Shown here: piece after piece, positions 26,179-58,235 of the stretch
How positions within the stretch are numbered: the first letter of the stretch is position 1
Layout: every line of letters starts with the position of its first letter
Source: Xanthomarina arctica
GTDB taxonomy: Bacteria > Bacteroidota > Bacteroidia > Flavobacteriales > Flavobacteriaceae
Assembly: GCF_014638915.1 (NCBI RefSeq)
Contig: NZ_BMFQ01000001.1
Coordinates: 1,067,142 to 1,131,141 of the forward strand
DNA: 64,000 nucleotides
Direction: 5' to 3'
Notes under the pieces: model-generated
The model's input: the letters and a program-made list of their open reading frames with translations, nothing else
Database searches by the model: none
Told to the model about the DNA's origin: nothing
Translations under genes and position numbers: made by a program

Positions 26179-27615
26179 ATGGTACCATATATCATTCAAG
26201 CAATCGCATTTCAGTTATTCTTTTTAATAGTTTATGATGCATTCTTAAAAAAGCAAACCTTCTTTAATTGGAATAGAGCTTACCTTTTAATAACCGCAAC
26301 TTTATCTTTTGTGTTGCCCATTATTAAAATTGAGATGTTTAAAAACATCGTTCCACAACAATATATTATCACACTTCCAGAAGTTTTTATTGGAAAACAA
26401 AACCCTATAGTTTTAGACGAAGTTTTAATTGAAGGAGTTAATCAGGCTTCGAGTTTCTCTTGGTCTTGGATGTATTTGTTCTACATTGGATCCACTATTG
26501 CTTTTGCCTTTTTTGCTTATAAACTGATTAACATTTTCCGATTAATATATAACAATGAAAAACACGTAGAATCTAATTTGAAAATAGTGAATTTAGAAAA
26601 TAGTCGGGATGCTTTTTCCTTTTTTAATTACATTTTTATGGGTATGCAATTAGAAAACGAAGAAAGAGATACCATTTTAAAACACGAGTTGGTCCATGTG
26701 AAACAAAAACACAGTTTCGATATGTTATTTTTCGAAATCCTTAGAATTCTGTTTTGGTTTAATCCATTCATTTACATGTATCAAAATAGAATTTCGGTGG
26801 TACACGAATTTATAGCAGATGCTGAAGCTGTAAAACACAATAAAAAACAATATTATCAAAACCTGTTATCGCAAGTTTTTAATGCCCAACAGGTATCATT
26901 CATCAATCCATTTTTTAAACAATCATTAATCAAAAAACGAATCGTTATGTTACAAAAATCAAAATCAAAACAAGTCCAATTAGTAAGGTATGCACTATTA
27001 ATTCCCATGGTCTTTGGGATGTTAATTTATTCTTCTTGTAGTGATACAAATCAAGAAAGTATTGCTGTTTTAAGCGAAAATCCTCAAGAAGATCAATTAA
27101 AAATGATCATTGAATCCTTTGACACCGATGGGAAATTAAATGACACCGAAAAGGAAGAGATGTCAGCCTATTTTTTAGATGTAATTAAAGCAAATGTTCA
27201 AGGTCAGGATGTTTCAACAAAATCAATTAGCACCTCTGATTTTGATAAAAAAGAAGATGTGCCATTTTCAGTTATAGATCAAGTTCCAGTATTTCCAGGT
27301 TGTGAAAGTGGCAGTACTAACGAGGAACAGAAATTATGTATGAGTAAACAAATTAATACACTTGTTGCTAAAAACTTCAATACAGATCTAGGAAAAACAT
27401 TAAACTTAACGGGTATAGTAAATATAGCTGTTTATTTTAAAATAGATAATCAAGGAAATATTATTGAAGCTAAAGCAAGAGCAGAAAACCCAGAACTGGT
27501 AGAAGAAGCTCTTCGCGTTGTAAATATGTTGCCAAAAATGATACCTGGAAAGCACAATGGAAAAGCTGTTAATGTTCCTTATTACTTGCCAATTAAGTTT
27601 CAAATAAATGAGTAG
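26179..27615 (+). CDS. M56 family (BlaR1-like) membrane metallopeptidase with C-terminal TonB-like domain
   Basis: 478 residues. Three N-terminal transmembrane helices, a zinc-peptidase motif HELVH (about 169-173) with a downstream EFIADAEAV helix, and another transmembrane segment near 270-290 match BlaR1/MecR1 topology. Instead of a penicillin-sensor domain the C-terminus carries a TonB_C-like module (about 370-478: VPVFPGCE, LCMSKQI, VYFKIDNQGNI, YYLPIKFQI). It is preceded by the BlaI gene and overlaps a TPR gene by 8 bp. It presumably relays an envelope signal to BlaI. Confidence 0.9.
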   Translation: MVPYIIQAIAFQLFFLIVYDAFLKKQTFFNWNRAYLLITATLSFVLPIIKIEMFKNIVPQQYIITLPEVFIGKQNPIVLDEVLIEGVNQASSFSWSWMYLFYIGSTIAFAFFAYKLINIFRLIYNNEKHVESNLKIVNLENSRDAFSFFNYIFMGMQLENEERDTILKHELVHVKQKHSFDMLFFEILRILFWFNPFIYMYQNRISVVHEFIADAEAVKHNKKQYYQNLLSQVFNAQQVSFINPFFKQSLIKKRIVMLQKSKSKQVQLVRYALLIPMVFGMLIYSSCSDTNQESIAVLSENPQEDQLKMIIESFDTDGKLNDTEKEEMSAYFLDVIKANVQGQDVSTKSISTSDFDKKEDVPFSVIDQVPVFPGCESGSTNEEQKLCMSKQINTLVAKNFNTDLGKTLNLTGIVNIAVYFKIDNQGNIIEAKARAENPELVEEALRVVNMLPKMIPGKHNGKAVNVPYYLPIKFQINE

Positions 27616-30208: not shown

Positions 30209-31333
30209 CTATTTTTTAAAGTCTCTATCTTTCCATTTGTAGCTTGAAAAAAGGGACAGACTGGCAATGTAAACGGTGAAAAAGGGGTACATAAAAGCAC
30301 TAATAAGATAACTTTTAAAAAGCCTTTTTTGATTAAAAAATATAGCAGTTTTAAAAAGCAAAATAAAATCAACAGACAGTTTTAAAATCAAAATAATTAA
30401 TAGAATTTTTAAATTTAAGGATATAATTATAGTTAATAATAAGGAAGAAATAGTAACAGCATTCATTAATAAAACCAGCAAACCTGTAAGCTTTCCAAAG
30501 GTGTTTTTATAATGTGTTGTTTTCGAAGCCCATCTCACTCTCTGCGATTTTAAACTTGAAAAATCCGGTTGTGGTTTGGTTAAAACAATGGCTTCTTTAG
30601 CTTTTAAAAATAATACAGAATCTCTGTGTTGTTCTATGGCTTTTTGTAATAAAAACACATCGTCTCCACTAGCTATTTCAGAATTACCGTCAAAACCATT
30701 TAGTTTTTTAAAGAACTCTTTTTTGTAGGCTAAATTGGCTCCATTACTTAAAAAAGGCCTTTTCAAGCCAAATCCACCAATAGTTGCTCCAATTAAACTC
30801 AAAAAGTCAAAGGCTTGAAATTTGTCTAAAAGCGTTTGAAGCCTATAATAGGCAACGGGACCAACAACCATGTTGCAATGGGTTTTGTTAATAAAGCTAT
30901 TGAAACATTCAAGCCACAAATTAGGTAGCAAACAATCGGCATCCGTGGTTATAATCCATTCGTGTTGTGCTGTTATAATGGCTGTTGAAATGGCATCCTT
31001 TTTTGGAGATTTTGAAGTTCTTTTATTCTGAATGATTTTGAAATTTATCTCAGTTGTATCAAGATAATTTCTAATGATTTCAACCGAAGTGTCTTCAGAT
31101 TCATCGTTGACAAAAATGAATTCAAAGTTTGAAGGTGTGTATTTTAGTTTAGAAATGGAATCTAATAATTCGGGTAGGTTTTCGGCTTCATTCCTAAAAG
31201 GAATAATCACTGAAAATTTGATTTTTTTTGATGTCTTTTCAAATTCAAAATCATCAACTTTATCAAAACCATAAATAAAACTTCCTATTAAAATAACATA
31301 TAAGAACGTGATGATAAGAAAAAAACCGATCAT
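30209..31333 (-). CDS. Family 2 glycosyltransferase, membrane-associated
   Basis: 374 residues. An N-terminal transmembrane helix, then a GT-A fold catalytic domain: FSVIIPFRNEAENLPELLDS, the DxD-type site TTDADC, the acceptor-side GDDVFLLQKA and QRVRW motif, followed by two to three C-terminal transmembrane helices. This is the layout of processive or lipid-acceptor GT2 enzymes. The start overlaps the end of the upstream UPF0104 gene by 4 bp. It probably transfers a sugar to a lipid or polyprenol-linked acceptor; donor and product are unknown. Confidence 0.9.
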   Translation of the reverse strand: MIGFFLIITFLYVILIGSFIYGFDKVDDFEFEKTSKKIKFSVIIPFRNEAENLPELLDSISKLKYTPSNFEFIFVNDESEDTSVEIIRNYLDTTEINFKIIQNKRTSKSPKKDAISTAIITAQHEWIITTDADCLLPNLWLECFNSFINKTHCNMVVGPVAYYRLQTLLDKFQAFDFLSLIGATIGGFGLKRPFLSNGANLAYKKEFFKKLNGFDGNSEIASGDDVFLLQKAIEQHRDSVLFLKAKEAIVLTKPQPDFSSLKSQRVRWASKTTHYKNTFGKLTGLLVLLMNAVTISSLLLTIIISLNLKILLIILILKLSVDFILLFKTAIFFNQKRLFKSYLISAFMYPFFTVYIASLSLFSSYKWKDRDFKK

Positions 31334-39054: not shown

Positions 39055-39315
39055 ATGAAAAACACAAACGACGTAAAAGCCGAAATTAAAAAATATATTT
39101 TAGAAGCATCTTTATCAGATATCAAAGATGTGGAAGACGATGCCTTAATTTTTGAAAATGGCTTATTGGACTCCATGGGATTATTATTTCTTATTGAATT
39201 TTTAGGTGAAAGTTTTGAAGTAGAAGTTACAGACGAGGAGTTAAATCCAAAAAATTTCGAATCCATCAATAATATTGTCTCTTTTGTTTCTAATAAACTT
39301 TCTGTAAAAGTTTAA
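39055..39315 (+). CDS. Acyl carrier protein (stand-alone)
   Basis: 86 residues. The phosphopantetheine attachment site is GLLDSMGLLF, with Ser40 in the family motif DS(L/M). Very acidic otherwise, and it lacks the fatty-acid-synthase ACP neighbourhood (no fabF). It opens an operon-like run with an asparagine synthase (29 bp later), a NAD-synthase-like gene and an AMP-forming ligase, so it probably carries the acyl intermediate of this pathway (inference). Confidence 0.9.
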   Translation: MKNTNDVKAEIKKYILEASLSDIKDVEDDALIFENGLLDSMGLLFLIEFLGESFEVEVTDEELNPKNFESINNIVSFVSNKLSVKV

Positions 39316-39344
39316 TTTCTTCAGCAATCAACAACTAACGTAAT

Positions 39345-41318
39345 ATGTGTGGCATAGCTGGCTTTTATGGCGATTTAGATAAGGAGAAATCCGTATCTAC
39401 ACTACAACACATGCTTACTAGAATCAAACATCGTGGTCCAGACCAAAGTGGTGTATATGTTTCTAATAAGGCAGGTTTGGGTAGTGTTAGATTAAGCATT
39501 ATTGATTTAAGTTCTGGCACCATGCCTATTTCTAATCAAGATGATAGCTTATGGATTGTTTTTAATGGCGAAGTTTTCAACTACATTGAGTTAAGAGAAG
39601 ACTTGCTCCAAAAAAATCACACTTTTAAAACGCAAACCGATACCGAGGTTATTCTGCATCTTTATGAAGAATATGGTCCAGAATGTTTGAATATGCTTAA
39701 TGGACAATTTGCTATTGCCATTTGGGATAAAAACAAAGAAGAGTTGTTTCTAGCCAGAGATCGCGTTGGCATTAGACCCTTATTTTATACACAAACTGAG
39801 AATGCCTTTGTATTTGCTTCCGAAATAAAATCCTTTCTAGAATATCCAGAAATAAATTTAAAATTTTCAAGTAAAGCGCTTTCAGAATATGTTACTTTTT
39901 GGACAGCATTATCACCAAATACAGTCTTTGAAGATGTTTTTGAAGTGCCTCCAGGAACTTACATGCTTATTAATTCTGTAGGGATTTCAAAAACAACCTT
40001 TTGGGAACTGCCAATAGTAAAACCAGATGACTATAAGTTTACAAACCTTGAAGAAGCTAAAAAAGCTTTTGAAGACATTTTTCTAGATTCAATTAAACTA
40101 AGACTTCGCGCAGATGTGCCTGTAGCCGCTTATTTAAGCGGAGGCATTGATTCTAGTATTACAACCGCTTTTATTAAGCAGATTTCACCAGAAAGACTGA
40201 GAACCTTTTCTATTGGTTTTACAGAAAAAGATTTTGACGAATCATCTTATCAAAACATAGCTGCGGCATATTTTAACACAGAACATTCTAGTGTTACTTG
40301 TAGTGAAAACGATATTTCAAATCACTTTAAAGAGGTAGTTTGGTTTACTGAAGCACCACTTTTAAGAACGGCTCCAACACCAATGAGTTTACTTTCTAAA
40401 AGTGTGAGAGACCAAAATATAAAAGTGGTAATAACCGGGGAAGGCGCCGATGAACTTTTAGGAGGTTATAATATTTTTAAAGAAACAAAAATCAAACACT
40501 TTTGGGCTAAAGATCCAAAATCGAAATACAGGCCTTTATTATTGAAAAAGCTGTATCCATATCTGCCACAGATTAGCAATTCTAGTAGTAACATGCTAAA
40601 AATGTTTTTTGGGTATAAACTAAGTGAAACCGAGTCTCCAATTTATTCACATCTTTTAAGATGGCATAATACCAGCAGAATTAAGAATTATTTTTCTGAA
40701 GAGATTAAAGAAAATATTAAAGATTATAAACCTATTGAAGATTTAGGAAAACAATTGGAGTCTAAATTAAAGGGCTACGATTATCTCACAAAAGCACAAT
40801 GGTTAGAGATCCATTTGTTTATGTCAGGCTATTTATTGTCTTCACAAGGAGATAGAATGGGAATGGCTAATTCTATTGAAGGTCGTTATCCATTTTTAGA
40901 TCATCGCGTTATTGAATTCTGCATGAATTTACATCCAGATTTAAAACTTCATGGGTTAAACGAAAAATACCTTCTAAAGAAAATGATGGCAGGCAGATTA
41001 CCAGAAGAAATTTTAAACAGATCTAAGCAAGCTTATCGAGCTCCAATTAGAAGCCTTTTTGTTTCAGAAGCCTTGCCGGAATATTTAAAAATCATGCTTT
41101 CAGAAGATAGCATTAAAGAATTTGGTGTTTTTAATGTAGACCATGTTAAAACATTACATTCAAAAATAACATCAAATAAAGGAGTTTCAGAAATAGATAA
41201 TATGGCTATGACAGCTATTTTGTCTATCCAGATTTTATACGATTTGTTTATAAAAAAATCAATCCCTAAACTCTCTGAAACCGAATTAATTACACTAGAT
41301 AAAATAATTGTTGAATAA
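39345..41318 (+). CDS. Glutamine-dependent asparagine synthase family protein (AsnB-like)
   Basis: 657 residues. It has an N-terminal Ntn glutaminase domain starting with Cys2 (MCGIAGFYG) including VFNGEVFNY, then an ATP-pyrophosphatase domain with the P-loop YLSGGIDSS and GEGADELLGGY. Free asparagine synthesis is possible, but the neighbours (ACP, NAD-synthase-like enzyme, acyl-AMP ligase) suggest amide formation on another carboxylate. It is 12 bp before the NAD-synthase-like gene. Confidence 0.9.
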   Translation: MCGIAGFYGDLDKEKSVSTLQHMLTRIKHRGPDQSGVYVSNKAGLGSVRLSIIDLSSGTMPISNQDDSLWIVFNGEVFNYIELREDLLQKNHTFKTQTDTEVILHLYEEYGPECLNMLNGQFAIAIWDKNKEELFLARDRVGIRPLFYTQTENAFVFASEIKSFLEYPEINLKFSSKALSEYVTFWTALSPNTVFEDVFEVPPGTYMLINSVGISKTTFWELPIVKPDDYKFTNLEEAKKAFEDIFLDSIKLRLRADVPVAAYLSGGIDSSITTAFIKQISPERLRTFSIGFTEKDFDESSYQNIAAAYFNTEHSSVTCSENDISNHFKEVVWFTEAPLLRTAPTPMSLLSKSVRDQNIKVVITGEGADELLGGYNIFKETKIKHFWAKDPKSKYRPLLLKKLYPYLPQISNSSSNMLKMFFGYKLSETESPIYSHLLRWHNTSRIKNYFSEEIKENIKDYKPIEDLGKQLESKLKGYDYLTKAQWLEIHLFMSGYLLSSQGDRMGMANSIEGRYPFLDHRVIEFCMNLHPDLKLHGLNEKYLLKKMMAGRLPEEILNRSKQAYRAPIRSLFVSEALPEYLKIMLSEDSIKEFGVFNVDHVKTLHSKITSNKGVSEIDNMAMTAILSIQILYDLFIKKSIPKLSETELITLDKIIVE

Positions 41319-41330
41319 AAACAGAACATC

Positions 41331-42311
41331 ATGAAATCAGAATCACGTAAACCTTTTTCAAAAGACATTATTCATATTGAAAACATAGACCAAGTTTGTA
41401 ATGATATTATTGCCAAACTTAAAACAGATGTCGCAAAAAACTTACAACGTCGTGGTGCCATTGTTGGTATTAGTGGAGGAATCGATTCGTCGGTTTGTCT
41501 GGCTTTGTCTGCAAAAGCTTTTGGTTCTAAAAATGTCTTAGGCATCATGCTTCCTGAACAGGATTCTAGTGATGACAGTAGACAATTAGCCGAAGAATTA
41601 GCAGCTACTTATGGTGTAAGTACCTTAATTGAAGATATTACAAAGGCCTTGGATGGTTTTGGTTGTTATGAAAGGAGAGACGACGCCATTTTAAGAGTTA
41701 TTCCAGGTTTCGATAAAAAAGTGGATAAAGCTAAGATTGAAATTAAGCAGAATATTGCTGAAAATATTCCGGCTATTTTCTCTATTACAGTTATTAAACC
41801 TAATGGAGATGTTGTTAGTAAGCTATTACCAGCAAGAGAATATTTGCAAATTGTAGCTTCTACTAATTTTAAACAACGTAGCAGAATGTCTATGTTATAT
41901 TATCATGCCGAACGTATGCATTATGCCGTTATTGGAACGCCTAACAAACATGAAGTAGAACAAGGGTTTTTTGTTAAATATGGTGACGGTGGAGCAGATG
42001 TTATGCCAATTGGGCATTTTTATAAAACACAGGTGTATCAATTAGCAAAACACTTAGGTGTACCACAAGGAATTATTGATAGAACACCAACAACTGATAC
42101 ATATACAGCCGAACAATCTCAAGAAGATTTCTTCTACCAAATGCCTTTTGAATCTATGGATTTAATATGGTATGGTTGGGAAAATGACTATCCGGCAGAT
42201 GAGGTTGGGAAAGTGATGGACAAGACAACCAAAGAGATTGAAAACATCTATAAAAGCTTTGAAAGAAAAAGAAAAACAACTGAATATTTAAGAATGAAAC
42301 CTATTTTCTAA
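41331..42311 (+). CDS. NAD-synthase-like ATP pyrophosphatase, enlarged form
   Basis: 326 residues. ATP-binding loop VGISGGIDSSV (48-54), then after an insertion of about 60 residues (roughly 115-175) the conserved part NFKQRSRMSMLYYHAERMHYAVIGTPNKHE and GDGGADVMPIGHFYKTQVYQLAKHLGVP. Ordinary ammonia-dependent NadE proteins are shorter (about 270 residues) and lack this insertion; the NH3 would come from elsewhere, perhaps the adjacent glutaminase. Its location between AsnB-like and ligase genes argues against a pure NAD-synthesis role. Substrate unproven. Confidence 0.85.
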   Translation: MKSESRKPFSKDIIHIENIDQVCNDIIAKLKTDVAKNLQRRGAIVGISGGIDSSVCLALSAKAFGSKNVLGIMLPEQDSSDDSRQLAEELAATYGVSTLIEDITKALDGFGCYERRDDAILRVIPGFDKKVDKAKIEIKQNIAENIPAIFSITVIKPNGDVVSKLLPAREYLQIVASTNFKQRSRMSMLYYHAERMHYAVIGTPNKHEVEQGFFVKYGDGGADVMPIGHFYKTQVYQLAKHLGVPQGIIDRTPTTDTYTAEQSQEDFFYQMPFESMDLIWYGWENDYPADEVGKVMDKTTKEIENIYKSFERKRKTTEYLRMKPIF

Positions 42312-42321
42312 ATCCTAAAAC

Positions 42322-43779
42322 ATGAATGTTTTCGATTACTTTTTTGAATCTACTAAAAACCTTGGAAAGGACTTTCTCTTGGGTTCAAAAGAAACTATTT
42401 CTTTCAAAAAACTGTATAACAACAGCTTAAAAATTGCCACATTTTTAAACAGATATATTGGAGCAAACAAGAATATTATTTTAATTAGTCCGAATTCGAA
42501 ATACTTTATAACGGCTTATTTGGGCATATTAAAATCGGGGAATACATGCGTGCCCTTAAACTTTGCCATAGAACAGGAAAACCTGGATTTTATATTAAAT
42601 ACAACGGAATGTGATACTGTTTTTATGGCAAAAAGTGCCAGATCTAAGTATAAAATCCCTTCACATATTCAAGTTATCGAGGAAGAAGATTTAGATCAAA
42701 TTATAGCTAATCAATCTATAGTGGATTATTATGTTGAGGTTGAAAAGAATCAACTAGCAGAAATTATTTTCACTTCTGGCTCAACAGGAATCCCTAAAGG
42801 TGTCATGATTAGTCATGAAAATATTATAGCCAATACAAATTCGATTATTTCCTATTTAAACCTCACCTCTAAAGATACTATGTGCGTGGTTTTACCTTTC
42901 TTTTATTGCTATGGATTATCCCTTTTGCATACACATTTAAGAGTTGGTGGTTCCATTGTTTTAAATAACAGTTTCATGTTTTTAGGCGCTGTTTTAAACG
43001 ATTTAAATGACTACAAATGTACTGGTTTTGCAGGTGTTCCTAGTCATTTTCAAATATTATTAAAGAAATCAAAAACATTCAAAACAACCCCATTTCCAGA
43101 TTTAAGATATGTCACCCAAGCCGGAGGGAAACTGCATACCGTTTTTATAGATGAATTTGTAAAAGCTTTTCCAAAGAAAGAATTTTATGTCATGTACGGA
43201 CAAACAGAAGCAACAGCGAGATTGTCTTATTTAGAGCCAAAAATGATTCATAAAAAAACAAGCTCTATTGGAAAACCCATTCCAGATGTCACTTTTAAAA
43301 TTGTGGACGACATGGGCAAAACACTTGGTGTTAATCAAGAAGGAGAGTTGTTGGCAAAAGGGAAAAATATCATGTTAGGCTATTATAAAGAGCAGAGTGA
43401 AACTAAAATGGCTATTAAAAATAGCTGGCTTTATACTGGAGATGTTGCCGTAGTTGATGAAGACGGATACTATTATTTAAAGGCCAGAAAGAAAGAAATT
43501 TTAAAGGTTGCTGGAAAAAGAGTGAGTCCAAAAGAAATTGAAGAAGTTATCCTTTCTGTTGAAGAAGTTATGGATTGTACTATTTCTGGTTATGACGACG
43601 ATTTATTTGGGGAAGCCATTCAAGCAACGATAGTCGCAAATGGCAATTTTGATGAAGTCCAATTAAAAGAAAAAATACTTCATGCCTGTTCTAAAAAATT
43701 GGCACTTTATAAAATACCTCAAAAAGTTATTTTTGAAAAAGTAATGAAAATGAGCGCTTCCGGAAAAAAAGTAAAGTAA
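42322..43779 (+). CDS. AMP-forming acyl-CoA/acyl-ACP ligase family enzyme
   Basis: 485 residues. The ATP-binding loop is FTSGSTGIPKGV (about 150-161), followed by GQTEATARLSY and YTGDVAVVDEDGYYYLKARKKEILKVAGKRVSP. The C-terminal catalytic Lys is expected in MKMSASGKKVK at the very end. Such enzymes activate a carboxylate as its adenylate and pass it to CoA or a carrier protein; the ACP of the same operon is the likely acceptor (inference). Confidence 0.9.
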   Translation: MNVFDYFFESTKNLGKDFLLGSKETISFKKLYNNSLKIATFLNRYIGANKNIILISPNSKYFITAYLGILKSGNTCVPLNFAIEQENLDFILNTTECDTVFMAKSARSKYKIPSHIQVIEEEDLDQIIANQSIVDYYVEVEKNQLAEIIFTSGSTGIPKGVMISHENIIANTNSIISYLNLTSKDTMCVVLPFFYCYGLSLLHTHLRVGGSIVLNNSFMFLGAVLNDLNDYKCTGFAGVPSHFQILLKKSKTFKTTPFPDLRYVTQAGGKLHTVFIDEFVKAFPKKEFYVMYGQTEATARLSYLEPKMIHKKTSSIGKPIPDVTFKIVDDMGKTLGVNQEGELLAKGKNIMLGYYKEQSETKMAIKNSWLYTGDVAVVDEDGYYYLKARKKEILKVAGKRVSPKEIEEVILSVEEVMDCTISGYDDDLFGEAIQATIVANGNFDEVQLKEKILHACSKKLALYKIPQKVIFEKVMKMSASGKKVK

Positions 43780-43783
43780 AATA

Positions 43784-44458
43784 CTATTTGGTAACTGCCT
43801 TCCTGTTGATTGACTTATTATAAAAATCTAAATACTCCTTTGAAACTACTTCATATTTGATAGATTTTATAAATAAAAAATAAGACACATTTCTAACAAT
43901 ATAGGGACTAAACCCAGCATAGCTATAAGATCTAGTGGTGTTAATGTTCTTTACTTCTCCAAAGGTTATGGCGTATTTAGCTCCTAAATCTTTACTTTTT
44001 TCTGCCACATCGTATAAGAAGGCAGGAATTATTCCCATGCCTCTATATTTAGGAACTGTAAAAACATTTTCCAATAACACTTCGTCTTGCTTAAGTTGTG
44101 GGAATCTATTTCCCCAAGTGGCTCTTAATTTATTGTTTTCTGATGAATCAATTAACCAAACTCTAGCACACGGCACTTGTTCTTTTGTCTCACCAATATA
44201 ACAGGTATTAAATTTAAGAATGAAACCATTGTTTGGGTTGTCTATAAAAAAGGGTTTATCTGCTTCCGTAAATTCTCGAATGCTAATAGGTTTAAGCGTT
44301 CTGGGTTTTTTAAACGGAATACTTAAATCTCGCTTAAAACCAAAAGCTATTTCTTTAGAATATAATCTGTTTGAAAATGCGTTCCAAAGATATTTAGCTT
44401 TACCATCTTTTATTAATTTTGGTAATAAAGCAATTTTGCTAAATAAATTACTGCTCAT
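43784..44458 (-). CDS. GNAT-like acetyltransferase family protein
   Basis: 225 residues from the ATG at 44458 (MSSNLFSKIALLPKLIKDG); a longer in-frame start at 44533 would add a Ser/Asn-rich extension. A GNAT fold is suggested by VLLENVFTVPKYRGMGIIPAFLYDVAEKSKDLGAKYAITFGEVKNI, with a pocket-type R/Q..G.G pattern. It is convergent with the operon and ends 4 bp from its last gene. It might acylate or amidate the operon's product, but the link is positional only. Confidence 0.75.
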   Translation of the reverse strand: MSSNLFSKIALLPKLIKDGKAKYLWNAFSNRLYSKEIAFGFKRDLSIPFKKPRTLKPISIREFTEADKPFFIDNPNNGFILKFNTCYIGETKEQVPCARVWLIDSSENNKLRATWGNRFPQLKQDEVLLENVFTVPKYRGMGIIPAFLYDVAEKSKDLGAKYAITFGEVKNINTTRSYSYAGFSPYIVRNVSYFLFIKSIKYEVVSKEYLDFYNKSINRKAVTK

Positions 44459-45757: not shown

Positions 45758-47530
45758 TTAATCGTCTATTGTAATTGGTTCTTTACTCAAGTAAACTTCA
45801 GGATTTTTAGAAGTTGAATTTTTAGAAGAAATATTGATTGATTTATTGTCTTTTAAAAGTTTTATTGCTTCATCTGAAGTGATGCTTTTTTCTTCATAAT
45901 AAAATGCAGCATTCTTTTTAGCCATCTCAATCACAAAATCTAAAGGTGCTTTTGGAGGAGGTGGAGGAGGAATATTTGACATTTCACCTTTTTTCGCCAT
46001 GTTGTTCTGAACTTTATTTTGTTCTTCAATGGAAGTAAAACGAACTGTTCCAGCGTGATTCTCAATATTGGTTGTAATAATTATATATGGCTCCTTTTGA
46101 GTAATTTTCAAAATTTCATCATATGAAACAGCTTTTCCGTTGTAAGAGTATGAAATATTATCATTTTTTAGACTTAAAACATAGTCGTAAGCAGATTTAT
46201 GTGGAGGTGGTGGAGGCAAGTCATTAGCTTTTTTCATTTTTGAAGCTGGAGCAGGAGTTGCAGGTGGAGGAGGTGGTGGCGGAATAAAACTTTTTTCACC
46301 TTCTTTCACAATTGGCGAATTTGTGTAATTTTCATCGTTTTTATCCACTAATTGAATTACAATGGGCATTTTTATATGTGAAGTTGTTGGTCTTATACTA
46401 AAAATCTGAATTAAATTGCTCATTGGATTCTCGTATAATAAGGCAACGGCTTCTTTATTTAAAGTATTACCAGTTATTTTAACCGCTGGTTTACCTATAA
46501 ATTTAATAACAAAACTGCTAATAGCTTCGCCAGTATTGGTTCCTAGAATAAATTTTTCAGCAGCTTCCTTCGTTAAATTAACTGTACAACCATTGCAAGG
46601 AACACCATTAATGGTTGCAATGGTTTCTTGCATTGCTTCAGGAGTTATTTCACTAATAACTTTAGTTTCTTTTTCAATGACATCCTTCGTACTAAAACTA
46701 TAAATTAATAATGCTAAAATTGGGAGAAGTACGATGCTTCTCAACCAAATACCTGTTTTTGATGATGATGTTTTCATAACTGTAAATCGTTTTTTGATTG
46801 ATGAATAATTGATGGCTGTTGCCAATTGAGGTTCTAATACATTTGATGAGAATGCTAATAATATTTGTTGATAGGCCGATAAAGTGATGCCTTTTTTAAT
46901 GACTTCTCTATCTGCTAAAAATTCATGATTTAATTTGATGTCTCTTTTCAAGAGATAAATTAGCGGATTAAACCATAATACAATTTGAAAAATTTCAATA
47001 AATAGGATGTCTAAGGAATGCTTCTGATAAACGTGAGCTTCTTCATGAATCAATACTTCTTTAGGGATTTTTTGAGATTCAAAAAGTATTTTATTTAGAA
47101 AAATATATTTTAAAAAAGTGTGTGGAACTATTAATTCTTCTAATAAAACGTTTATCGACTTCTGAGTTTTTAACTTCGGATTTCGACTTATTTTAAGCAA
47201 GATGCTACTTAAGTTGTAAATGAATTTTAAACCAAAAAACAGAACACCTAATAAATACACAGCCCATAAAATGTATGGTAAATAATTTACAGACTCTTCA
47301 ATAAGAATTAAAGGTGTTGAAGTGGAATTGTTAATTGCAGCTTCATTTATAGTTATTGGAGCTTCAACAATTTGCGTAAAGGTTATAAAAGGAATCCCAA
47401 TGGAAATTATTAGAGAGGCTAATAGGTAAACCCTTTTAAAAATATGCATGTTTTCCTTCTCTAAAACGAATTTGTAAAAGAGTAAGAAAATTGCAAGACA
47501 AGCGCTGGATTTTATGATGTATTCTACCAT
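45758..47530 (-). CDS. M56 family (BlaR1-like) metallopeptidase with proline-rich repeated C-terminus
   Basis: 590 residues. Three N-terminal transmembrane helices, the zinc motif HEEAHVYQKHS (near residue 163) and a second transmembrane part near 265-285 match BlaR1-like topology. The rest is unusual: runs of PPPPPPP (near 420 and 520) alternate with a short domain repeated at least twice (DYVLSLKNDNISYSYNGKAVSYDE; DFVIEMAKKNAAFYYEEKSITSDE). A third, more distant copy may lie near 345-385. It shares its operon with a BlaI-type repressor, 2 bp apart. Confidence 0.9.
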   Translation of the reverse strand: MVEYIIKSSACLAIFLLFYKFVLEKENMHIFKRVYLLASLIISIGIPFITFTQIVEAPITINEAAINNSTSTPLILIEESVNYLPYILWAVYLLGVLFFGLKFIYNLSSILLKISRNPKLKTQKSINVLLEELIVPHTFLKYIFLNKILFESQKIPKEVLIHEEAHVYQKHSLDILFIEIFQIVLWFNPLIYLLKRDIKLNHEFLADREVIKKGITLSAYQQILLAFSSNVLEPQLATAINYSSIKKRFTVMKTSSSKTGIWLRSIVLLPILALLIYSFSTKDVIEKETKVISEITPEAMQETIATINGVPCNGCTVNLTKEAAEKFILGTNTGEAISSFVIKFIGKPAVKITGNTLNKEAVALLYENPMSNLIQIFSIRPTTSHIKMPIVIQLVDKNDENYTNSPIVKEGEKSFIPPPPPPPATPAPASKMKKANDLPPPPPHKSAYDYVLSLKNDNISYSYNGKAVSYDEILKITQKEPYIIITTNIENHAGTVRFTSIEEQNKVQNNMAKKGEMSNIPPPPPPKAPLDFVIEMAKKNAAFYYEEKSITSDEAIKLLKDNKSINISSKNSTSKNPEVYLSKEPITIDD

Positions 47531-47532
47531 GG

Positions 47533-47901
47533 CTATTTATTTTTAATTTCGGAATCAATTAATTTTTTTAAATCTTCTAATTCTTCTTTGGTTAGGTTGG
47601 TTTCCTGGGTAAAAAACGAGGCGAATTGAGATGCGCTATCATTGAAAAAGTTTTTAATCAAGCCGTTAACATGTTTAGAGAAGTAGTCTTTCTTCTTAAC
47701 CAATGGAAAGTATTCTCTGGATTTACCATATAATTTATAGTCAACAAACCCTTTATCTGTCATGCGTTTTAATAGGGTAGCTACTGTAGTTGTAGCTGGT
47801 TTTGGTTCTGGATAGGAGTCGAGTAGATCTTTCATAAAAGCTTTTTCATGCTTCCATAAATGGTTCATTAAATCTTCTTCAGTTTTGGATAAGGATTGCA
47901 T
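47533..47901 (-). CDS. BlaI/MecI/CopY family transcriptional repressor (second copy)
   Basis: 122 residues. Winged helix with LSKTEEDLMNHLWKHEKAFMKDLLDSYPEPKPATTTVATLLKRMTDKGFV, then a dimerisation tail. It is similar in layout to the repressor at 25799 but with differing recognition helix residues (PATTTVATLLKRM versus PAYNTVSTIVRIL). The M56 gene follows after 2 bp. Operator copies with a different sequence lie upstream (47905-47938). Confidence 0.92.
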   Translation of the reverse strand: MQSLSKTEEDLMNHLWKHEKAFMKDLLDSYPEPKPATTTVATLLKRMTDKGFVDYKLYGKSREYFPLVKKKDYFSKHVNGLIKNFFNDSASQFASFFTQETNLTKEELEDLKKLIDSEIKNK

Positions 47902-51368: not shown

Positions 51369-54248
51369 TCAGATTTTCACAAGTTTAGTGGTTAAATGTC
51401 CTCCTGAGATATTTTGCGCTTTTATGATATAGATACCACTGTTTAAAGAAGTAATATCGAATTCATTGTTTCTTGAAAAGTTACCAGAATAGTTTTGAAT
51501 TAGTTTTCCAGTAATATCATATATTTCTACGTTAGTGATGTCTTGACTAAATCTAAAACTAGTATGAGCTGGGTTTGGGTAAATTTTGAATGCTTGAGCT
51601 TCTGTAAACTGTTGGGTACTCAATGTACTCGCATTTCCGAAAATTTTAAATTGACCCGGTGCAATTGTAATAGGGCTAGTTGTATTACTTACTTCTATAC
51701 TTGTGCTACCAGTTTCATCCATTAATTCAAACCATGTTCCAGTGTTTGGAAAATTAGGATTGATGTTTTGACTCACTACATCAAAATTCGTGATTATTAT
51801 AACATCTTTTAATTGATTAGAAGGAATGGCATCATCCCAAATATGAATTCTGGGTGTTAGATTGCCAGATTCTATAGTATAGCTTCCTTCAAAGACAGGT
51901 TCATTAACTTTCAAATCATTTAGTCTTGCCCAATCGTTATATATTTGATTGCGATTTGTTATTCCCAACCAATCATCAGTCCATTGTGGTTGAGGTTTGG
52001 TGTCTAGTTTACAATCACCGTCTGTTCCATCTGGAGTATTTACCGTTCCATTACTACAGGTGAAGATGGAGTTTTGCATCCCAAGATCTCCAAAATGCCA
52101 AATCATTTTTGGTCCAGGAATGGTTAATGTTACTGCTCCTAGTGCTGACATTCTTGCTAACGACGTGTCTAAATCTTGAACATCATAACTCGCATTTGAA
52201 TTCCCGTATTGAAGGTTTTTATACATCAAGCGTTCTTCGTCATGACTTTCTGCATATCCAACTAATCTTGGTGCATCAAACCCTCTAGAATCGCTTCCCA
52301 TTCGGTTTATATTTGAATTACTTGCATAACCCATTGTTAATTGGTTATATGGGTCTGTCATTTTTCCCCACATCATGATTCCTTTGCTAACAGCGTCTGT
52401 TAATCTATAATTAGCCCACTGTTGTTCTTCAGTAGCAGAACCTAAATGCTCAAAAATGACGTAATGCGATTCATCTAAACTCCAGCTATAATCGGCGTAG
52501 TCTTTTAATACATCTACACGATCTTGTTGGTAGCTATTGGTACAGCCTTCATCACTAGCCGTACAGTTTTGAGTAAAACCTTTAGTTAAATCCCATCTGA
52601 AACCATCTATATTGAAGTCTTCAACCCAATGTTTTATAACATTCTGAACATATTTTTGTGTTCTAGGTTGTTGGTGATTAAAATCTTCACCTACATTGTA
52701 GGAGTGTCTTGCTACTGTGTTGAAATAAGGGTTTTCCGTACTTGGACTTCCCCAGCCATCTCCATCAGGATCTTCCATCCACATACGAACCATTGGGTTT
52801 CTACCAAAGGCATGATTAAGTGCAATGTCTAAGATAACTGCGATATCGTTTTGATGACATAAATCAATAAACTCTTTTAATTTATCTTCTGTGCCATAAT
52901 ATTTATCTAAAGCCATATGAAAAGAAGTGTTATAACCCCAGCTTTCATTGCCTTCGTATTCCATAACTGGCATTAATTGAATGGCATTGACATTTAAATT
53001 TTTGAAATAATCTATTCTATCAATTAAATCTTGATAATTACGATTGGCATCGAAATCACGAATTAATACTTCATAAATAACTAAATCTTCTTTAGCAGGT
53101 TTCGTGAAGTTGGTTACTTGCCAATTATATGGTGTTTGTCCAGTTTTTAAAACGGTAACTTCTCTTTCTTGGCCAACAGGATACGTTGGCATATTTGGAT
53201 AGGAATTACTTGGTATTCCTGGATCGTCAAATGGCGAAAGAACTAATGTTGAAAATGGATCCGCAGTCTTCACCATGACAGGTGAATTTGCAATTGGTGA
53301 TTCGTCAACAACCCAATATTGATATGTATAATCTACACCTGAAGTTAATCCTGTTAATTCTAACCAGAATTTAGAACTTGAAGGGTCTTTTTTCATTCCA
53401 TAAGATGTGTCCGGTGACCAATTGTTAAAGCTACCAGCTACATATACAAAATCTTTATTAGGAGCATCTAAAACTAAAATTGCTTTTGTGTTATCGTTTT
53501 CATTGTAGTTAATACCTTCATCTAAATTAGCTGGTAATGCTTCTTCTGATACATTAGGATCTATAATAACAGCAAATGTTTTTGATAGGGTAGTTCCTGC
53601 TTGCGTAACATCTAATACATAGTTTTGATTGGATGTTATACCTGTATGAGTGTATGTGAAATTGGAAGTACTAGAATTTGAATTTAATAGTGATCCGTTA
53701 GCATATAACTGATAATTAGCAACTCCATTCGTGTTTGACGCAGCGATGTTGAAGCTATTTGTGGATAATACCGTTGTGCTGCCTTCAGTTGGATTCGTTA
53801 ATGTGACTTGAAAAGAACCAACATTTATAAAAAAATCTGAACAGCCATTGTCTTTAAGTTCCTGAGAACCGTCGGCGCTTCTAAATACCATTCCCATTTT
53901 AGTAGCATTTGTAGCTTGCGTGGCATTTAAACTATAATAGGTTTCAGGAATGAAGGTGATACTCCAAACTCCGTTTCCGTTGTTTGTCATTTCACCTACA
54001 CCATCATCTTGTCCCCAATTTCCAACTACTCCAAACCCCCATGGGTCAGAGTCCTCACCAATTCCCGAATGCAAGTATATTTTAGTAGGGTTGTTTAAGT
54101 TATTACAGTCTGTTACACTGTTTATATTATTTAAATCCAGCGTTATTGTTATGGATTCATCCGTATTAAAAGGGTTTGGATTGATAGTAATCTGTGAGTA
54201 CCCTACATAGCAGGATAATGTAATAAATAGAAATAGTAATTTTTTCAT
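51369..54248 (-). CDS. GH13 alpha-amylase, secreted, with type A T9SS sorting domain
   Basis: 959 residues from the ATG at 54248 (MKKLLFLFITLSCYVGYSQ); the longer start at 54278 would fall in a terminator. Order: signal peptide; an N-terminal all-beta starch-binding-like region (about 20-250); a CBM48-like module (about 252-335, FVYVAGSFNNWSPD); a GH13 catalytic barrel (from about 380) with DGFRWD (nucleophile Asp near 553), IFEHLG (acid/base Glu near 600) and ESHDEERL (near 669); and a C-terminal type A sorting domain (FKIYPNPAHTSFRFS). It hydrolyses alpha-1,4-glucans at the cell surface for the Sus system. Confidence 0.95.
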   Translation of the reverse strand: MKKLLFLFITLSCYVGYSQITINPNPFNTDESITITLDLNNINSVTDCNNLNNPTKIYLHSGIGEDSDPWGFGVVGNWGQDDGVGEMTNNGNGVWSITFIPETYYSLNATQATNATKMGMVFRSADGSQELKDNGCSDFFINVGSFQVTLTNPTEGSTTVLSTNSFNIAASNTNGVANYQLYANGSLLNSNSSTSNFTYTHTGITSNQNYVLDVTQAGTTLSKTFAVIIDPNVSEEALPANLDEGINYNENDNTKAILVLDAPNKDFVYVAGSFNNWSPDTSYGMKKDPSSSKFWLELTGLTSGVDYTYQYWVVDESPIANSPVMVKTADPFSTLVLSPFDDPGIPSNSYPNMPTYPVGQEREVTVLKTGQTPYNWQVTNFTKPAKEDLVIYEVLIRDFDANRNYQDLIDRIDYFKNLNVNAIQLMPVMEYEGNESWGYNTSFHMALDKYYGTEDKLKEFIDLCHQNDIAVILDIALNHAFGRNPMVRMWMEDPDGDGWGSPSTENPYFNTVARHSYNVGEDFNHQQPRTQKYVQNVIKHWVEDFNIDGFRWDLTKGFTQNCTASDEGCTNSYQQDRVDVLKDYADYSWSLDESHYVIFEHLGSATEEQQWANYRLTDAVSKGIMMWGKMTDPYNQLTMGYASNSNINRMGSDSRGFDAPRLVGYAESHDEERLMYKNLQYGNSNASYDVQDLDTSLARMSALGAVTLTIPGPKMIWHFGDLGMQNSIFTCSNGTVNTPDGTDGDCKLDTKPQPQWTDDWLGITNRNQIYNDWARLNDLKVNEPVFEGSYTIESGNLTPRIHIWDDAIPSNQLKDVIIITNFDVVSQNINPNFPNTGTWFELMDETGSTSIEVSNTTSPITIAPGQFKIFGNASTLSTQQFTEAQAFKIYPNPAHTSFRFSQDITNVEIYDITGKLIQNYSGNFSRNNEFDITSLNSGIYIIKAQNISGGHLTTKLVKI

Positions 54249-54264
54249 AGTTTTAAACTTTAAA

Positions 54265-54294
54265 AAAAAGGCTACCATTAGTGGTAGCCTTTTT
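54265..54294 (-). terminator. Internal terminator between the SusE/F genes and the amylase
   Basis: AAAAAGGCTACCA pairs perfectly (13 bp) with TGGTAGCCTTTTT around a TTAG loop and is followed on the minus strand by a T run. It lies between the stop at 54307 and the amylase ATG at 54248, so it would cut or attenuate read-through. Confidence 0.85.
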
Positions 54295-54306
54295 AATGAA
54301 AACAGT

Positions 54307-55614
54307 TTAGTTTAGTGTAAGTGTATATGTATAAGCTCTTGCCACACTTAAATCAAGAGTAACTGTATAATTTCCTGCTGTAGGAACTGTAATGTTAGTA
54401 CCTCCTAGCTCTAAGAAGCCATCTGCATCTGTATCCCCATAATCCAATTCCCATTCGTCATTCGCACGGAATTTAATTTCTTCTGCAGTTAAATCTAATG
54501 TTACAGACCATGTACCACTACCAGCATCATAGGTCATATCTTGGTCATCATTCCAACTTCCAGTTCCAGATCCAATTAAACCCCAAGATGTTTGAGTTTC
54601 AGAATATGTTAGAGCATCAGTATCTGCTTGAATAAAATAATAACCTGCGGTTGCTGTACAATTTACTTCGCCATCTTCTACTAAAATTCCAGTAAAAGTA
54701 CCGTTATCTCCCCAATCAGGATTTCCCCAATCAAAGTTTCCATCGGCATCAGGGCCTAAGAATTTATGTTCGCCATCTAACCAAACATAACCTTCATAAT
54801 CTGCAGTCAAACCAGATGATGCAGCTAATAAGGGTGCCGATGCTGGATCCCATCCTTGATGATTTCCTGGTACAGCAAGTTTAGGTTGTATAATTAGGGT
54901 TAACTCTACAGTGAAATTAACAAGATCTACATCGATTTTATATATTCCTGAATCATAGCCTGAAAGATTCGTGCCTCCAAATTTAGTTAGTAAACCGGAA
55001 TCAGTTGCTATTTCTTGCCAAATTGTTTCTCCTGTTATATTATCTTCTATAAAATTAAAATCGTCTGTATCCGTTAATTCAACAGTGGCTGAAAAAACAT
55101 TATATTCAACTAAAGTCATAGCTGTAGCCGTACTTGGGTCAAAAGAATTAAATGAGGCATTTACGTACAATTGTTCAACAGTTTGTATAAACGGAGTTAC
55201 CAAAAGTGTAATAACATTTGAGTACTCGCCTGCCGCATTTTTTACTCTTACATCAACATTTGATTCTACACTATGGCCAATTCTTACTGTTTCTAAAAGA
55301 AATGTATTTAATTCGCCAGCAGTCCAAGACATGTTATTCTCATCTGTTACTCCTGCAATAAAAGGTTCTGCAAATAAAGTAGAAGTTTCCGCAAACTCTA
55401 CAGTATAGTTTTCTCCATCAGTATCTTCCCAAACTATTGTTAGAACCACATTATTCATATTAGTATCATCGATAATAATATTAGTTCCTGTTTCAGGTGT
55501 CTCTATTTGAAATGAAGCTGCAGTAGGTTTATAACCAAAGTCATCATTATTTTCGCACGAGGCAAATCCTAATATAACGGCTAAGCCTAAAAGAATTTTA
55601 TAAATATTTTTCAT
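54307..55614 (-). CDS. SusE/SusF-type outer membrane starch-binding lipoprotein
   Basis: 435 residues. Lipobox LGFASC at the signal-peptide end, then SusE-like Ig domains and a C-terminal tandem of starch-binding (CBM-like) modules with AVPGNHQGWDPASAPLL, GYVWLDGEHKFLGP and SWGLIGSGTGSWNDDQDM. The C-terminal 190 residues are closely related to those of the neighbouring gene, marking a tandem duplication. Surface lipoprotein helping bind malto-oligosaccharides for SusC/D. Confidence 0.9.
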   Translation of the reverse strand: MKNIYKILLGLAVILGFASCENNDDFGYKPTAASFQIETPETGTNIIIDDTNMNNVVLTIVWEDTDGENYTVEFAETSTLFAEPFIAGVTDENNMSWTAGELNTFLLETVRIGHSVESNVDVRVKNAAGEYSNVITLLVTPFIQTVEQLYVNASFNSFDPSTATAMTLVEYNVFSATVELTDTDDFNFIEDNITGETIWQEIATDSGLLTKFGGTNLSGYDSGIYKIDVDLVNFTVELTLIIQPKLAVPGNHQGWDPASAPLLAASSGLTADYEGYVWLDGEHKFLGPDADGNFDWGNPDWGDNGTFTGILVEDGEVNCTATAGYYFIQADTDALTYSETQTSWGLIGSGTGSWNDDQDMTYDAGSGTWSVTLDLTAEEIKFRANDEWELDYGDTDADGFLELGGTNITVPTAGNYTVTLDLSVARAYTYTLTLN

Positions 55615-55618
55615 AGTT

Positions 55619-56683
55619 TTAATTTTGTATTAATAGGTATGTATACTCACGAGGGACACTTAAATCTAAAACAACTGTATAATTGCCTGCAGCAGGAACA
55701 GCGATATTATCGGGAGAATTCAAATCTAGAAATCCATCGGCACCTGTATCTCCATAATTCCAATCCCAAGCATCATTTGCTCTAAATTTAATTTCACCAG
55801 ATGTAAGTGAAATATCCAATCTCCAAGTTTGAGTTGCCGGATCATAAGTTAAATCAGTATCGCCATCCCAACCTCCAGGAGTTGCGTCACCAATTATTCC
55901 CCAACTACTATAATTGGTTTCACTATAGGTTAAAAGTACTGTATCTACTTTTACATAATAGTAACCAGCGGCCGCCAAACAATTAACCTCATCCTCTTCT
56001 ACTAAATGTCCAGTAAAAGTACCATCATCACCCCAATCTGTATTCCCCCATTCGAAAGCTAAACTTTCATTAGGAGCAAGAAATTTGTGTTCACCATCAA
56101 GCCAAACATATCCTTCGTAATCTGAAGCCGCGAAGCCTGAAGATGCTAATAATGGTGCTGTTGGAGGATCCCATCCTTGATGATTTCCTGGGACAGCTAT
56201 TTTTGGTAAATCTGTAGTAAATGTCGTTACAAGAATAGTTACAGTCTCTGAATATTGAACCAATTGGCTAGGGTCTCCTATTGAAGACTTGATTCGAATA
56301 TCGATACTTGTTTCTGTAAAAGGAGTTACTCCTAACCCGGCTAATGTTGCATTGAAGTCTGCGATATTCATTGTAAAATATGTCTGATCAATGGTCGCAG
56401 GAATAGCTACATCACTAAAGTCTGTACCACTTAAAGCCATTTCGATAGCGTAGTTTATATTAGTGGGTGTTTCATAACTAGAATCATCCCAAGAGAATGT
56501 AATAGCGGTATTTGTTTGTTCTTCAAATTGATTAAGAATAAAATGTTGACCATCCGAAGGTGTCAAAATAGTACTAGAACTTTCTGGTGCTACTATTAGC
56601 TTTTCATCATCCTCGGAACATGCTCCTATTAGTAAAGCTAAAGCAAATAAATATGATATTTTTATGATATTTTTCATTTTCAT
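55619..56683 (-). CDS. SusE domain-containing outer membrane lipoprotein
   Basis: 354 residues (an internal ATG at 56677 is also possible). A lipobox LIGAC follows the signal peptide, then a SusE-type domain, then the shared C-terminal modules (AVPGNHQGWDPPTAPLL, GYVWLDGEHKFLAP, SWGIIGDATPGGWDGDTDL). It is spaced 4 bp from its paralogue downstream and 10 bp from SusD upstream. Expected to be surface-exposed and to bind alpha-glucans. Confidence 0.9.
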   Translation of the reverse strand: MKMKNIIKISYLFALALLIGACSEDDEKLIVAPESSSTILTPSDGQHFILNQFEEQTNTAITFSWDDSSYETPTNINYAIEMALSGTDFSDVAIPATIDQTYFTMNIADFNATLAGLGVTPFTETSIDIRIKSSIGDPSQLVQYSETVTILVTTFTTDLPKIAVPGNHQGWDPPTAPLLASSGFAASDYEGYVWLDGEHKFLAPNESLAFEWGNTDWGDDGTFTGHLVEEDEVNCLAAAGYYYVKVDTVLLTYSETNYSSWGIIGDATPGGWDGDTDLTYDPATQTWRLDISLTSGEIKFRANDAWDWNYGDTGADGFLDLNSPDNIAVPAAGNYTVVLDLSVPREYTYLLIQN

Positions 56684-56693
56684 TATTTTAAAA

Positions 56694-58235
56694 TTAGTAG
56701 CCTGGATTCTGTTCTAAGTTGGGATTAGCATTTAATGCTGATTCTGGAATTGGAAATAAATTGTAGTTTGTAGAAATAGACGTACCATTTTGTACATTCC
56801 CTTTCCATGGCCATAGGTAAGAGCTACCTGTAAATTTCCCAAACCTGATAAGATCAGTTCTTCTATGTCCTTCAAGGTTTAACTCTCTGGCTCTTTCATC
56901 TAGAATATAATCTAAGGTTAAATCACTCATAGTGATTGGAGTGGCATTAGATCTAGTTCTAACCGCATTAACTAAACTAAGTGCTTTTGTCATGTCGGTT
57001 CCTGCAGCGCCCTGTAGCGCACATTCTGCGTACATAAGATTGGCATCGGCAAGTCTGTAAAGCGGAAAATCTGTACCTGAAAATTGTGTTGCTCCAGATG
57101 AACTACCATCAGAATCAGTATTTCTAAATTTAATTGAAGGGTAACCGTCCGTCCATGCTTTATAATCTGCCATGACATAATTATGTCCTGTAGTCCAAAA
57201 TAAAGAAGCTCGTGCATCAACAGAAGTCCCTAGGTCTCCAAATAATCCGTACCATGCTTCGGTGGCACGATGTCCAGACCAGCCTTCAGAGGCTCCAAAA
57301 TCAGATAAATTCATAGTCTCTGTACCTAAGTTTCCATTTACAATGTAAGTTGTGTTACCAAAACTTTGGCTAAAAACGGCATCTGCTATTAGTGGAAAAA
57401 TAATTTCAGAAGAATTATCGTTATCTCCAGAAAAATTCTGTACAAAATTAGTAGCTAACGCGTATCCGCCTTCGTCAATTACAACATTTAAATAAGTTAA
57501 AGCATCAGTATATCTACTCGTTCCAGTATAAACTTCAGCGTTCATGTATAATTTTGCTAAAAGCATAGAGACAACATAACGATTTGCTCTTCCATAGTCA
57601 TTATTTAATGAAATTAAGGGTTGGATTTCAAGCAATTCAGATTCCACAAAATTAAACAACTCTTCTCTAGAAGCTTCAGGTAAAGGCGTGGTTTCGTTTA
57701 AATTTTCTTCAGTAACTAAAACACCCTTTCCAAATATATCGATTATATAGAAGTAAGCAAGGGAGCGTAAAAAACGTGCTTCATAAATGGCTTCTTCAGA
57801 ATCTGGAATATCTGTTGCAGTATTTAAAATACTTAATAAGTTGTTACATTGTGGGATCGTGTAATAAGCTCTGTTGTATAGGTATCTAAAAAACTTATTG
57901 TTAGCATCCCAATTGGATGTTGTAGTCAACTGGTCTAACCCATCATCTCCCCATCTATTTTTCATGCCATCTGCAGTGAAATCTTGTAAATTAATAATTC
58001 CTCTTAAAAATGGTGATTCCCCAGCATCGTCACTAATATCAGATTCTGTCGGTCCATTAGGTCCAGATAGTGCAAAAGAAGCATAAAGCCTTGATACAAT
58101 ACCTTCAATGGCATTTGGGTCATTAGCTAAAATCTCTTCTAAAGATAATTGCACTTTAGGTTCGGTATCTAAATCGTTGGAACATGAAAATAGTGTCAGT
58201 GCCAAAAATCCAGTTAATATTAATATTTTTTTCAT
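56694..58235 (-). CDS. SusD family nutrient-binding lipoprotein
   Basis: 513 residues. The signal peptide ends in a lipobox (LTLFSC), followed by a helical SusD/RagB TPR-like fold (e.g. ARFLRSLAYFYIIDIFG, LLAKLYMNAEVYTG, C-terminal DERARELNLEGHRRTDLIRFGKF). It caps the SusC transporter and binds malto-oligosaccharides; the glucan specificity is inferred from the amylase. Ten bp from SusC. Confidence 0.96.
   Translation of the reverse strand: MKKILILTGFLALTLFSCSNDLDTEPKVQLSLEEILANDPNAIEGIVSRLYASFALSGPNGPTESDISDDAGESPFLRGIINLQDFTADGMKNRWGDDGLDQLTTTSNWDANNKFFRYLYNRAYYTIPQCNNLLSILNTATDIPDSEEAIYEARFLRSLAYFYIIDIFGKGVLVTEENLNETTPLPEASREELFNFVESELLEIQPLISLNNDYGRANRYVVSMLLAKLYMNAEVYTGTSRYTDALTYLNVVIDEGGYALATNFVQNFSGDNDNSSEIIFPLIADAVFSQSFGNTTYIVNGNLGTETMNLSDFGASEGWSGHRATEAWYGLFGDLGTSVDARASLFWTTGHNYVMADYKAWTDGYPSIKFRNTDSDGSSSGATQFSGTDFPLYRLADANLMYAECALQGAAGTDMTKALSLVNAVRTRSNATPITMSDLTLDYILDERARELNLEGHRRTDLIRFGKFTGSSYLWPWKGNVQNGTSISTNYNLFPIPESALNANPNLEQNPGY

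Follow-up and report, generated by a model that had tools for sequence, protein, structure and literature searches.

Four adjacent genes in Xanthomarina arctica, encoding an acyl carrier protein (ACP), an AsnB-type glutamine amidotransferase, an enlarged protein resembling the nicotinamide adenine dinucleotide (NAD) synthase NadE, and an adenylate-forming acyl ligase, almost certainly constitute one functional module whose gene content is conserved and whose gene order is not. The genes lie in a 64,000-nucleotide stretch of contig NZ_BMFQ01000001.1 (assembly GCF_014638915.1, positions 1,067,142 to 1,131,141 of the forward strand), hereafter called the window. As the best overall explanation of this cassette we propose, with about an even chance of being right, that it makes an amide-bearing acyl group on the ACP for surface glycans, by a chemistry that we infer.

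The evidence for a module comes from the joint occurrence of the genes and from their arrangement. In strict searches, the NadE-like protein, the AsnB and the ligase matched the same six of 299 genomes of the family, X. arctica included, and no others; across a sample of the phylum the NadE-like protein was present in 13 of 395 genomes, again counting its own. The loci compared comprised 31 from named genomes (all titled Bacteroidota except two metagenome-assembled genomes (MAGs) titled Chlorobiota), 12 others from the phylum sample, and 20 from plasmids, the last picked from the matches listed among 121 plasmid records with a match. Nineteen plasmid loci come from alphaproteobacteria; the remaining one (L059) bears the label Roseateles, a betaproteobacterium, in a title that flags it as unverified. 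The survey covered Bacteroidota and, on the proteobacterial side, plasmids, and the loci are related to one another. Within this scope all four genes stand together in 58 of 63 loci, namely 30/31 from named genomes, 20/20 from plasmids and 8/12 from the phylum sample, and the ACP is present in 62. The 30 include one split locus (L047), in which the ligase is followed, at a distance of more than 3 kb, by the ACP and a partial AsnB match. Gaps in the phylum sample include L099, where the ACP was not found, and L096, a 4.7-kb contig on which the AsnB was not found. The AsnB of L095 is in pieces, and it and the AsnB and ligase of L025 look truncated or frame-shifted. The two MAGs titled Chlorobiota (L033 and L047) carry a cassette NadE that nests among those of Bacteroidota in our tree, a placement that would reflect either transfer or mislabelled bins.

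Eight gene orders were observed overall. The order of the window, ACP-AsnB-NadE-ligase, is kept in 28 of the 31 named-genome loci and in L091 and L092. The others are NadE-ACP-ligase-AsnB (L042), ACP-AsnB-ligase-NadE (L093), AsnB-NadE-ACP-ligase (L097 and L098), NadE-AsnB-ACP-ligase (L102, and L100 with the ligase turned), AsnB-ACP-ligase-NadE (15 plasmid loci), ACP-ligase-AsnB-NadE (four Azospirillum loci) and NadE-AsnB-ligase-ACP (L061). Such shuffling of order at constant content would point to selection for the four products working together. A sequence-only reading of this stretch had suggested that the genes form a cassette and had recommended a co-occurrence search on the four families; the joint presence, the shuffled orders and the 58 complete loci bear this suggestion out. 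A fusion of NadE with AsnB, suggested by an open reading frame (ORF) of 955 residues in L102, was discarded, as that ORF is read in another frame than the NadE match. Two copies of the cassette (L032 and L034), with wider intergenic gaps, come from a single metagenome assembly; the L034 copy has as its neighbours another AsnB, a glycosyltransferase, an ATP-grasp protein and a phosphatidylserine decarboxylase.

The NadE-like protein is a diverged NadE subfamily that coexists with the ordinary NAD synthase. The window protein scores 426.5 bits against NF002048 (PRK00876), above the cut-off of 313, and its counterpart in the cassette of Sinorhizobium meliloti (L052) scores 532.7. An insert of 54-56 residues is present in all 44 cassette proteins compared, against 0-9 residues at the same place in 15 ordinary NadE sequences. 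The insertion noticed in the sequence-only reading is real, and the enlarged form is already known: PRK00876 is an NCBI subfamily, named NAD(+) synthase, that describes these longer proteins, so the insert is not new to databases. Both groups share the ATP pyrophosphatase core (SGGxDS, N, R, R, GTxN, E, GD, K). Three further positions are exchanged in 44/44 cassette copies: an alanine found in 14 of the 15 ordinary enzymes becomes Q182, a threonine found in all 15 becomes V215, and a leucine found in 14 becomes T257. The last of these sits in the ADLW-type loop, where the [ST]ADLW-type sequence of ordinary enzymes reads TTDTY in the cassette proteins. In a tree of 53 proteins the single ordinary NadE occupies a very long branch, and the alphaproteobacterial proteins group with L099-L102 (Bacteroidota) apart from the main Bacteroidota group; the branches are long and the deep branching order of this tree is uncertain.

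A separate NAD synthase was found in 35 of 37 cassette-bearing genomes searched, with lower scores in G322 and G427 (120.9 and 101.6 bits), as well as in X. arctica itself (268 residues, C1:60577). No such enzyme was found in G308 and G316, two metagenome assemblies that may be incomplete. Three other AsnB-family genes accompany the cassette AsnB in the X. arctica genome, where a separate AsnB measures 554-558 residues. A sole NAD synthase, a sole AsnB and random neighbours in relatives were the circumstances under which the cassette idea had been expected to fail; the NadE-like protein is not the organism's only NAD synthase, the AsnB is not its only AsnB, and the neighbours in relatives are not random. 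Two of the further AsnB-family genes (L103 on contig C3 and L104 on C2) share a contig with a Wza homolog, at about 31 kb and 11 kb respectively, and no PRK00876 match was found beside either.

Judged on these residues and companions, the cassette NadE-like protein very probably does not make NAD. The opposite view, that it is a second working NAD synthase retained in the operon and that the pathway consists of the ACP, ligase and AsnB only, can draw on the subfamily name, on the kept ATP core and on a score of 161.4 against the general NAD synthase model TIGR00552 (cut-off 63.65). Moreover, sets of AsnB, ligase and ACP without a NadE occur in exopolysaccharide clusters. We consider this view highly improbable: the insert and the three exchanged positions are found in every copy, the ordinary enzyme is nearly always present besides, and the NadE-like gene stays with the ACP and ligase in two loci (L049 and L101) where no AsnB was found.

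The other three proteins were compared with curated families and among the loci (43 AsnB and 42 ligase sequences, alongside the 44 NadE-like proteins). Matches of the window ACP to carrier families are weak, the best NCBIfam score being 35.1 bits against a cut-off of 80; it falls below every cut-off, has no Pfam match, and its top sub-threshold NCBIfam matches are a cispentacin ACP and an ornithine-lipid ACP. It is identified as an ACP by its small size and the DS phosphopantetheine site, which reads DSMG in this and 28 other Bacteroidota ACPs compared. The window AsnB scores 518.8 bits against TIGR01536, the glutamine-hydrolysing asparagine synthase family (cut-off 267.1), and falls short of the N-acetylglutaminylglutamine amidotransferase family TIGR03104 (353.6 against 570.1). 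Residues that we take to form its glutaminase and synthetase sites are invariant in 43/43 proteins. The window ligase matches PF00501 with 237.2 bits, and the ATP motif and C-terminal lysine are kept in 41 of 42 ligases, the sequence from L032 ending short of the latter. Based on these kept residues, both the AsnB and the ligase look active. The cassette ligases fall into two subtypes, and at the pocket position that presumably corresponds to the amino-binding aspartate of amino-acid ligases they carry C, D, G, S or T, with cysteine in the window. An amino-acid-activating ligase is not favoured, as the aspartate is not conserved.

These assignments suggest a pathway of the following kind. The ligase would adenylate a carboxylic acid and load it onto the phosphopantetheine arm of the ACP. 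The AsnB, with ammonia from glutamine, and the NadE-like enzyme, with free or handed-over ammonia, would each carry out an ATP-driven conversion of a carboxylate or related group of the bound acid to an amide. We regard such an amidated acyl donor on the ACP as fairly likely. An acyltransferase whose type depends on lineage (double-GNAT-like, hexapeptide or FemAB-like) would transfer the amidated acyl group to a precursor of a surface polysaccharide, at an amino or hydroxyl group, and the polysaccharide genes that neighbour the cassette in many relatives would assemble and export the decorated polymer. A variant of the scheme has the AsnB and the NadE-like enzyme act in series on one group of the ACP-bound acid, so that a carboxylate becomes first an amide and then an amidine or nitrile. 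Enzymes related to this fold family do make nitriles and amidines, and the presence of two different ATP pyrophosphatases in so small a module calls for two nitrogen steps; two separate carboxylates explain the pair equally well, and the serial route is in our judgement very unlikely. The same low standing attaches to its broader form, in which an NAD-synthase fold recruited to a carrier pathway would, together with the AsnB, take a carboxylate through the amide to an amidine or nitrile and so furnish a new class of surface-glycan substituent in Bacteroidota and rhizobia, masked by the annotation NAD(+) synthase.

The glycan part of the proposal draws on the surroundings of the cassette, where the flanking genes vary from locus to locus and those for glycans recur. 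Homologs of Wza and Wzc occur in eight of the 63 loci (L037, L038, L044-L048 and L092) and sugar-transferase homologs in 18, one of which begins 5 bp past the ligase (L033). Among 25 genomes with counted Wza genes (PF02563, the only glycan family for which a chance expectation was derived), seven loci have a Wza by the cassette where 0.29 would be expected by chance (P 2.5e-8); P is 0.003 when these are counted as about three independent lineages, a grouping of our own. In two annotated Azospirillum records a series of glycosyltransferase genes and a gene of the O-antigen ligase family precede the cassette, and further loci contain glycosyltransferases, flippase-family genes, or genes of the RmlA, RmlD or UDP-GlcNAc-epimerase type. 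Documented exopolysaccharide clusters of other bacteria include AsnB-type genes, according to the available portions of two reports (PMC3684757, PMC9012009). A glycan is in our view a reasonably probable acceptor of the acyl group.

Acyltransferase genes of several kinds adjoin the core. The acyltransferase neighbours (ACYLTRANSFERASES) include a double-GNAT-like family of about 360 residues, which resembles GNAT proteins weakly and is matched by no Pfam model above cut-off. It accompanies 15 of the 20 plasmid loci and, in Bacteroidota, the two loci L099 and L100, its members showing 22-27% identity across phyla (E 1e-22 to 1e-44); the gene is mostly adjacent to the cassette, with S. meliloti having it about 10.5 kb away. 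In the four Azospirillum loci the NadE gene is directly followed by a different GNAT, possibly a remote relative of this family (hhalign E 1.6e-4, probability 51). A hexapeptide acyltransferase lies directly upstream of the ACP in 10 of the 31 named-genome loci, and FemAB/GNAT-type genes lie downstream of the ligase in L023. Varied transferases beside one core would be consistent with a core supplying an acyl donor to transferases that suit different acceptors. The sequence-only reading had counted the GNAT-type gene of the window as part of the cassette. Its ORF does end 4 bp from the ligase; it scores 17.5 bits against PF00583, below the cut-off of 20.7, shows no relation to the double-GNAT family when profiles are compared, and adjoins the cassette in only five of the 31 named Bacteroidota loci (four Xanthomarina and one MAG; 5 kb off in L036). 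It is a lineage-specific neighbour and was rejected as a fifth core gene.

A methyltransferase paralog of PrmC type is present at nine of the 20 plasmid loci (L054:14154-14879 and eight others), in eight of them beside the double-GNAT gene. None of the three paralogs scanned from plasmid loci reaches the PrmC cut-off, and all three lack the N-terminal portion of the profile. Since PrmC, by its family name, methylates a glutamine side-chain amide, amide methylation may be a tailoring step. Six Bacteroidota loci also have a PrmC-like gene nearby (cluster c13); the one copy scanned passes the PrmC cut-off (206.5 against 199.1) and so may be ordinary PrmC.

Several observations count against the proposal, either in its module or in its glycan part. 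No AsnB match lies within the 21 kb of L049, and within the stretches analysed the ligase was not found in L094 nor the AsnB in L101. The ligase homologs of L095 and L100 are on the opposite strand and share 33-34% identity. The variable pocket position implies that ligase substrates may differ. Beside the cassette in the window and the Xanthomarina loci, queries for Wza, Wzc and sugar transferases gave no match, and the three Wza homologs of the X. arctica genome are far from the cassette. The S. meliloti cassette lies 2.5 kb from minCDE, and its annotated neighbours include no polysaccharide gene. No homolog of the double-GNAT family was found in the X. arctica genome, in a search that had no positive control.

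The same loci without a glycan cluster (the window, Xanthomarina and S. meliloti) favour an explanation in which the cassette product is a lipid amide or a small diffusible metabolite, made on or released from the ACP, the glycan genes being incidental or co-regulated. Carrier proteins and ligases are able to supply small-molecule pathways, and the sub-threshold ACP matches to cispentacin and ornithine-lipid carriers agree with this. Glycan export or sugar-transferase genes recur, however, across unrelated loci, and no polyketide synthase or non-ribosomal peptide synthetase (NRPS) gene was recognised among the scanned neighbours; one gene for an ACP synthase III does lie near L035. We hold a metabolite or lipid product to be rather unlikely. 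The surface-glycan guess of the sequence-only reading stands in so far as glycan genes surround many relatives; the window cassette itself has no glycan cluster, and its product is one that we infer.

The proposed role can be set against known systems, the closest of which is a rhizobial pair, the ACP SMb20651 and the ligase SMb20650 of S. meliloti. This pair was reportedly first described by Ramos-Vega et al. in 2009. On pSymB an ACP gene is followed by an AMP ligase gene, and L052, whose record has no annotation over this stretch, has such a pair between its AsnB and its PRK00876 NadE. Two other carrier-domain matches on pSymB have no ligase homolog within the 3.1-3.2 kb around each, and by elimination the L052 pair probably corresponds to SMb20651/SMb20650; the L052 ACP has no PF00550 match. 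The L052 and window NadE proteins share about 43% identity, and their gene orders differ. In the available text of PMC7232532, SMb20650 is cotranscribed with SMb20651 and acylates it in E. coli, and does not replace the long-chain acyl-CoA synthetase FadD; the corresponding text of PMC5686131 states that the function of SMb20651 needs further investigation. That portion of the published account concerns ACP loading and does not bring in an AsnB or NadE. The four-gene set is likewise not described in the available portions of PMC7232532, PMC9386255, PMC5686131, PMC12794305, PMC3684757 and PMC9012009, among which the 2009 original is not included.

Resemblance to the XrtA/PEP-CTERM exopolysaccharide systems is seen among the nearest families of the window ligase (TIGR03098) and AsnB (TIGR03108) and of one L023 neighbour (TIGR03019, FemAB), yet all scores fall far below the cut-offs (279.4 against 592.35, 421.7 against 816.9 and 32 against 260). 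To our knowledge, XrtA/PEP-CTERM sets contain no NadE-like enzyme. The D-alanyl ligase and carrier protein DltA and DltC also feed a surface polymer and provide an analogy in working only; scores against them are far under the cut-offs (DltA 180.3, cut-off 559.85; DltC 27.5, cut-off 52.35), and the aspartate position is cysteine in the window. Ammonia-dependent NadE shares its sequence family and ATP-site residues with the cassette protein, which differs by the insert, the TTDTY loop and the fact that it is rarely a genome's only NAD synthase.

The layout of the cassette is given in the table below. Coordinates agree with the description of four plus-strand genes at 10-29 bp spacing: the genes run head to tail with gaps of 29 bp (ACP-AsnB), 12 bp (AsnB-NadE-like) and 10 bp (NadE-like-ligase). 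Promoter and terminator scans gave a signal no higher than in shuffles. The sequence-only reading had seen no fatty-acid, NRPS or polysaccharide gene next to the cassette, and none of the flanking genes that we scanned belongs to fatty-acid or NRPS biosynthesis or to capsule export; 7.7 kb upstream lies a GT2 glycosyltransferase (30209-31333, minus strand), and no link to the cassette was made. An anti-phage system was considered and set aside, five proteins having no PADLOC match.

Table 1 Features of the four-gene cassette and its neighbour in the window
Feature	Coordinates	Strand	Basis
Acyl carrier protein (ACP), 86 residues, DSMG phosphopantetheine site	39055..39315	+	ORF and motif
AsnB-type glutamine amidotransferase, 657 residues, both active sites intact	39345..41318	+	TIGR01536
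NadE-like ATP pyrophosphatase, 326 residues, subfamily PRK00876	41331..42311	+	NF002048
Insert of NadE-like protein, residues 111-165, GCYxRRD motif	41661..41825	+	Alignment of cassette copies
Adenylate-forming acyl ligase, 485 residues	42322..43779	+	PF00501
Weakly GNAT-like neighbour, 224 residues, lineage-specific, outside conserved core	43784..44458	-	PF00583 below cut-off

Other features of the window were recorded in passing. A Sus-like glucan utilisation locus (51369-61350, minus strand) comprises a TonB receptor, SusD, two SusE-type proteins and an alpha-amylase with a type IX secretion tail, and an adhesin-like protein of 2600 residues (2912-10714, minus strand) carries fn3, cleaved-adhesin and CHU_C type IX secretion domains. 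Two homologous gene pairs (25799-27615, plus strand; 45758-47901, minus strand) each encode a protein of 122-125 residues and a larger one; because the larger protein of the second pair is of BlaR1/M56 type, both look like BlaI/BlaR1 pairs. Among the relatives, L026:12633-15167 encodes a RecG helicase with an internal DUF559 domain that was not matched in the L024 homolog.

The annotated plasmid records shown label their cassette NadE-like proteins as NAD(+) synthase. If the proposed reading is true, the name is mistaken and these enzymes point to an amide modification that has yet to be described. For the rhizobial ACP-ligase pair, whose role has been left open since 2009, the cassette supplies genetic partners and a pathway that can be tested, and it ties that pair to surface-glycan clusters in Azospirillum and Bacteroidota.

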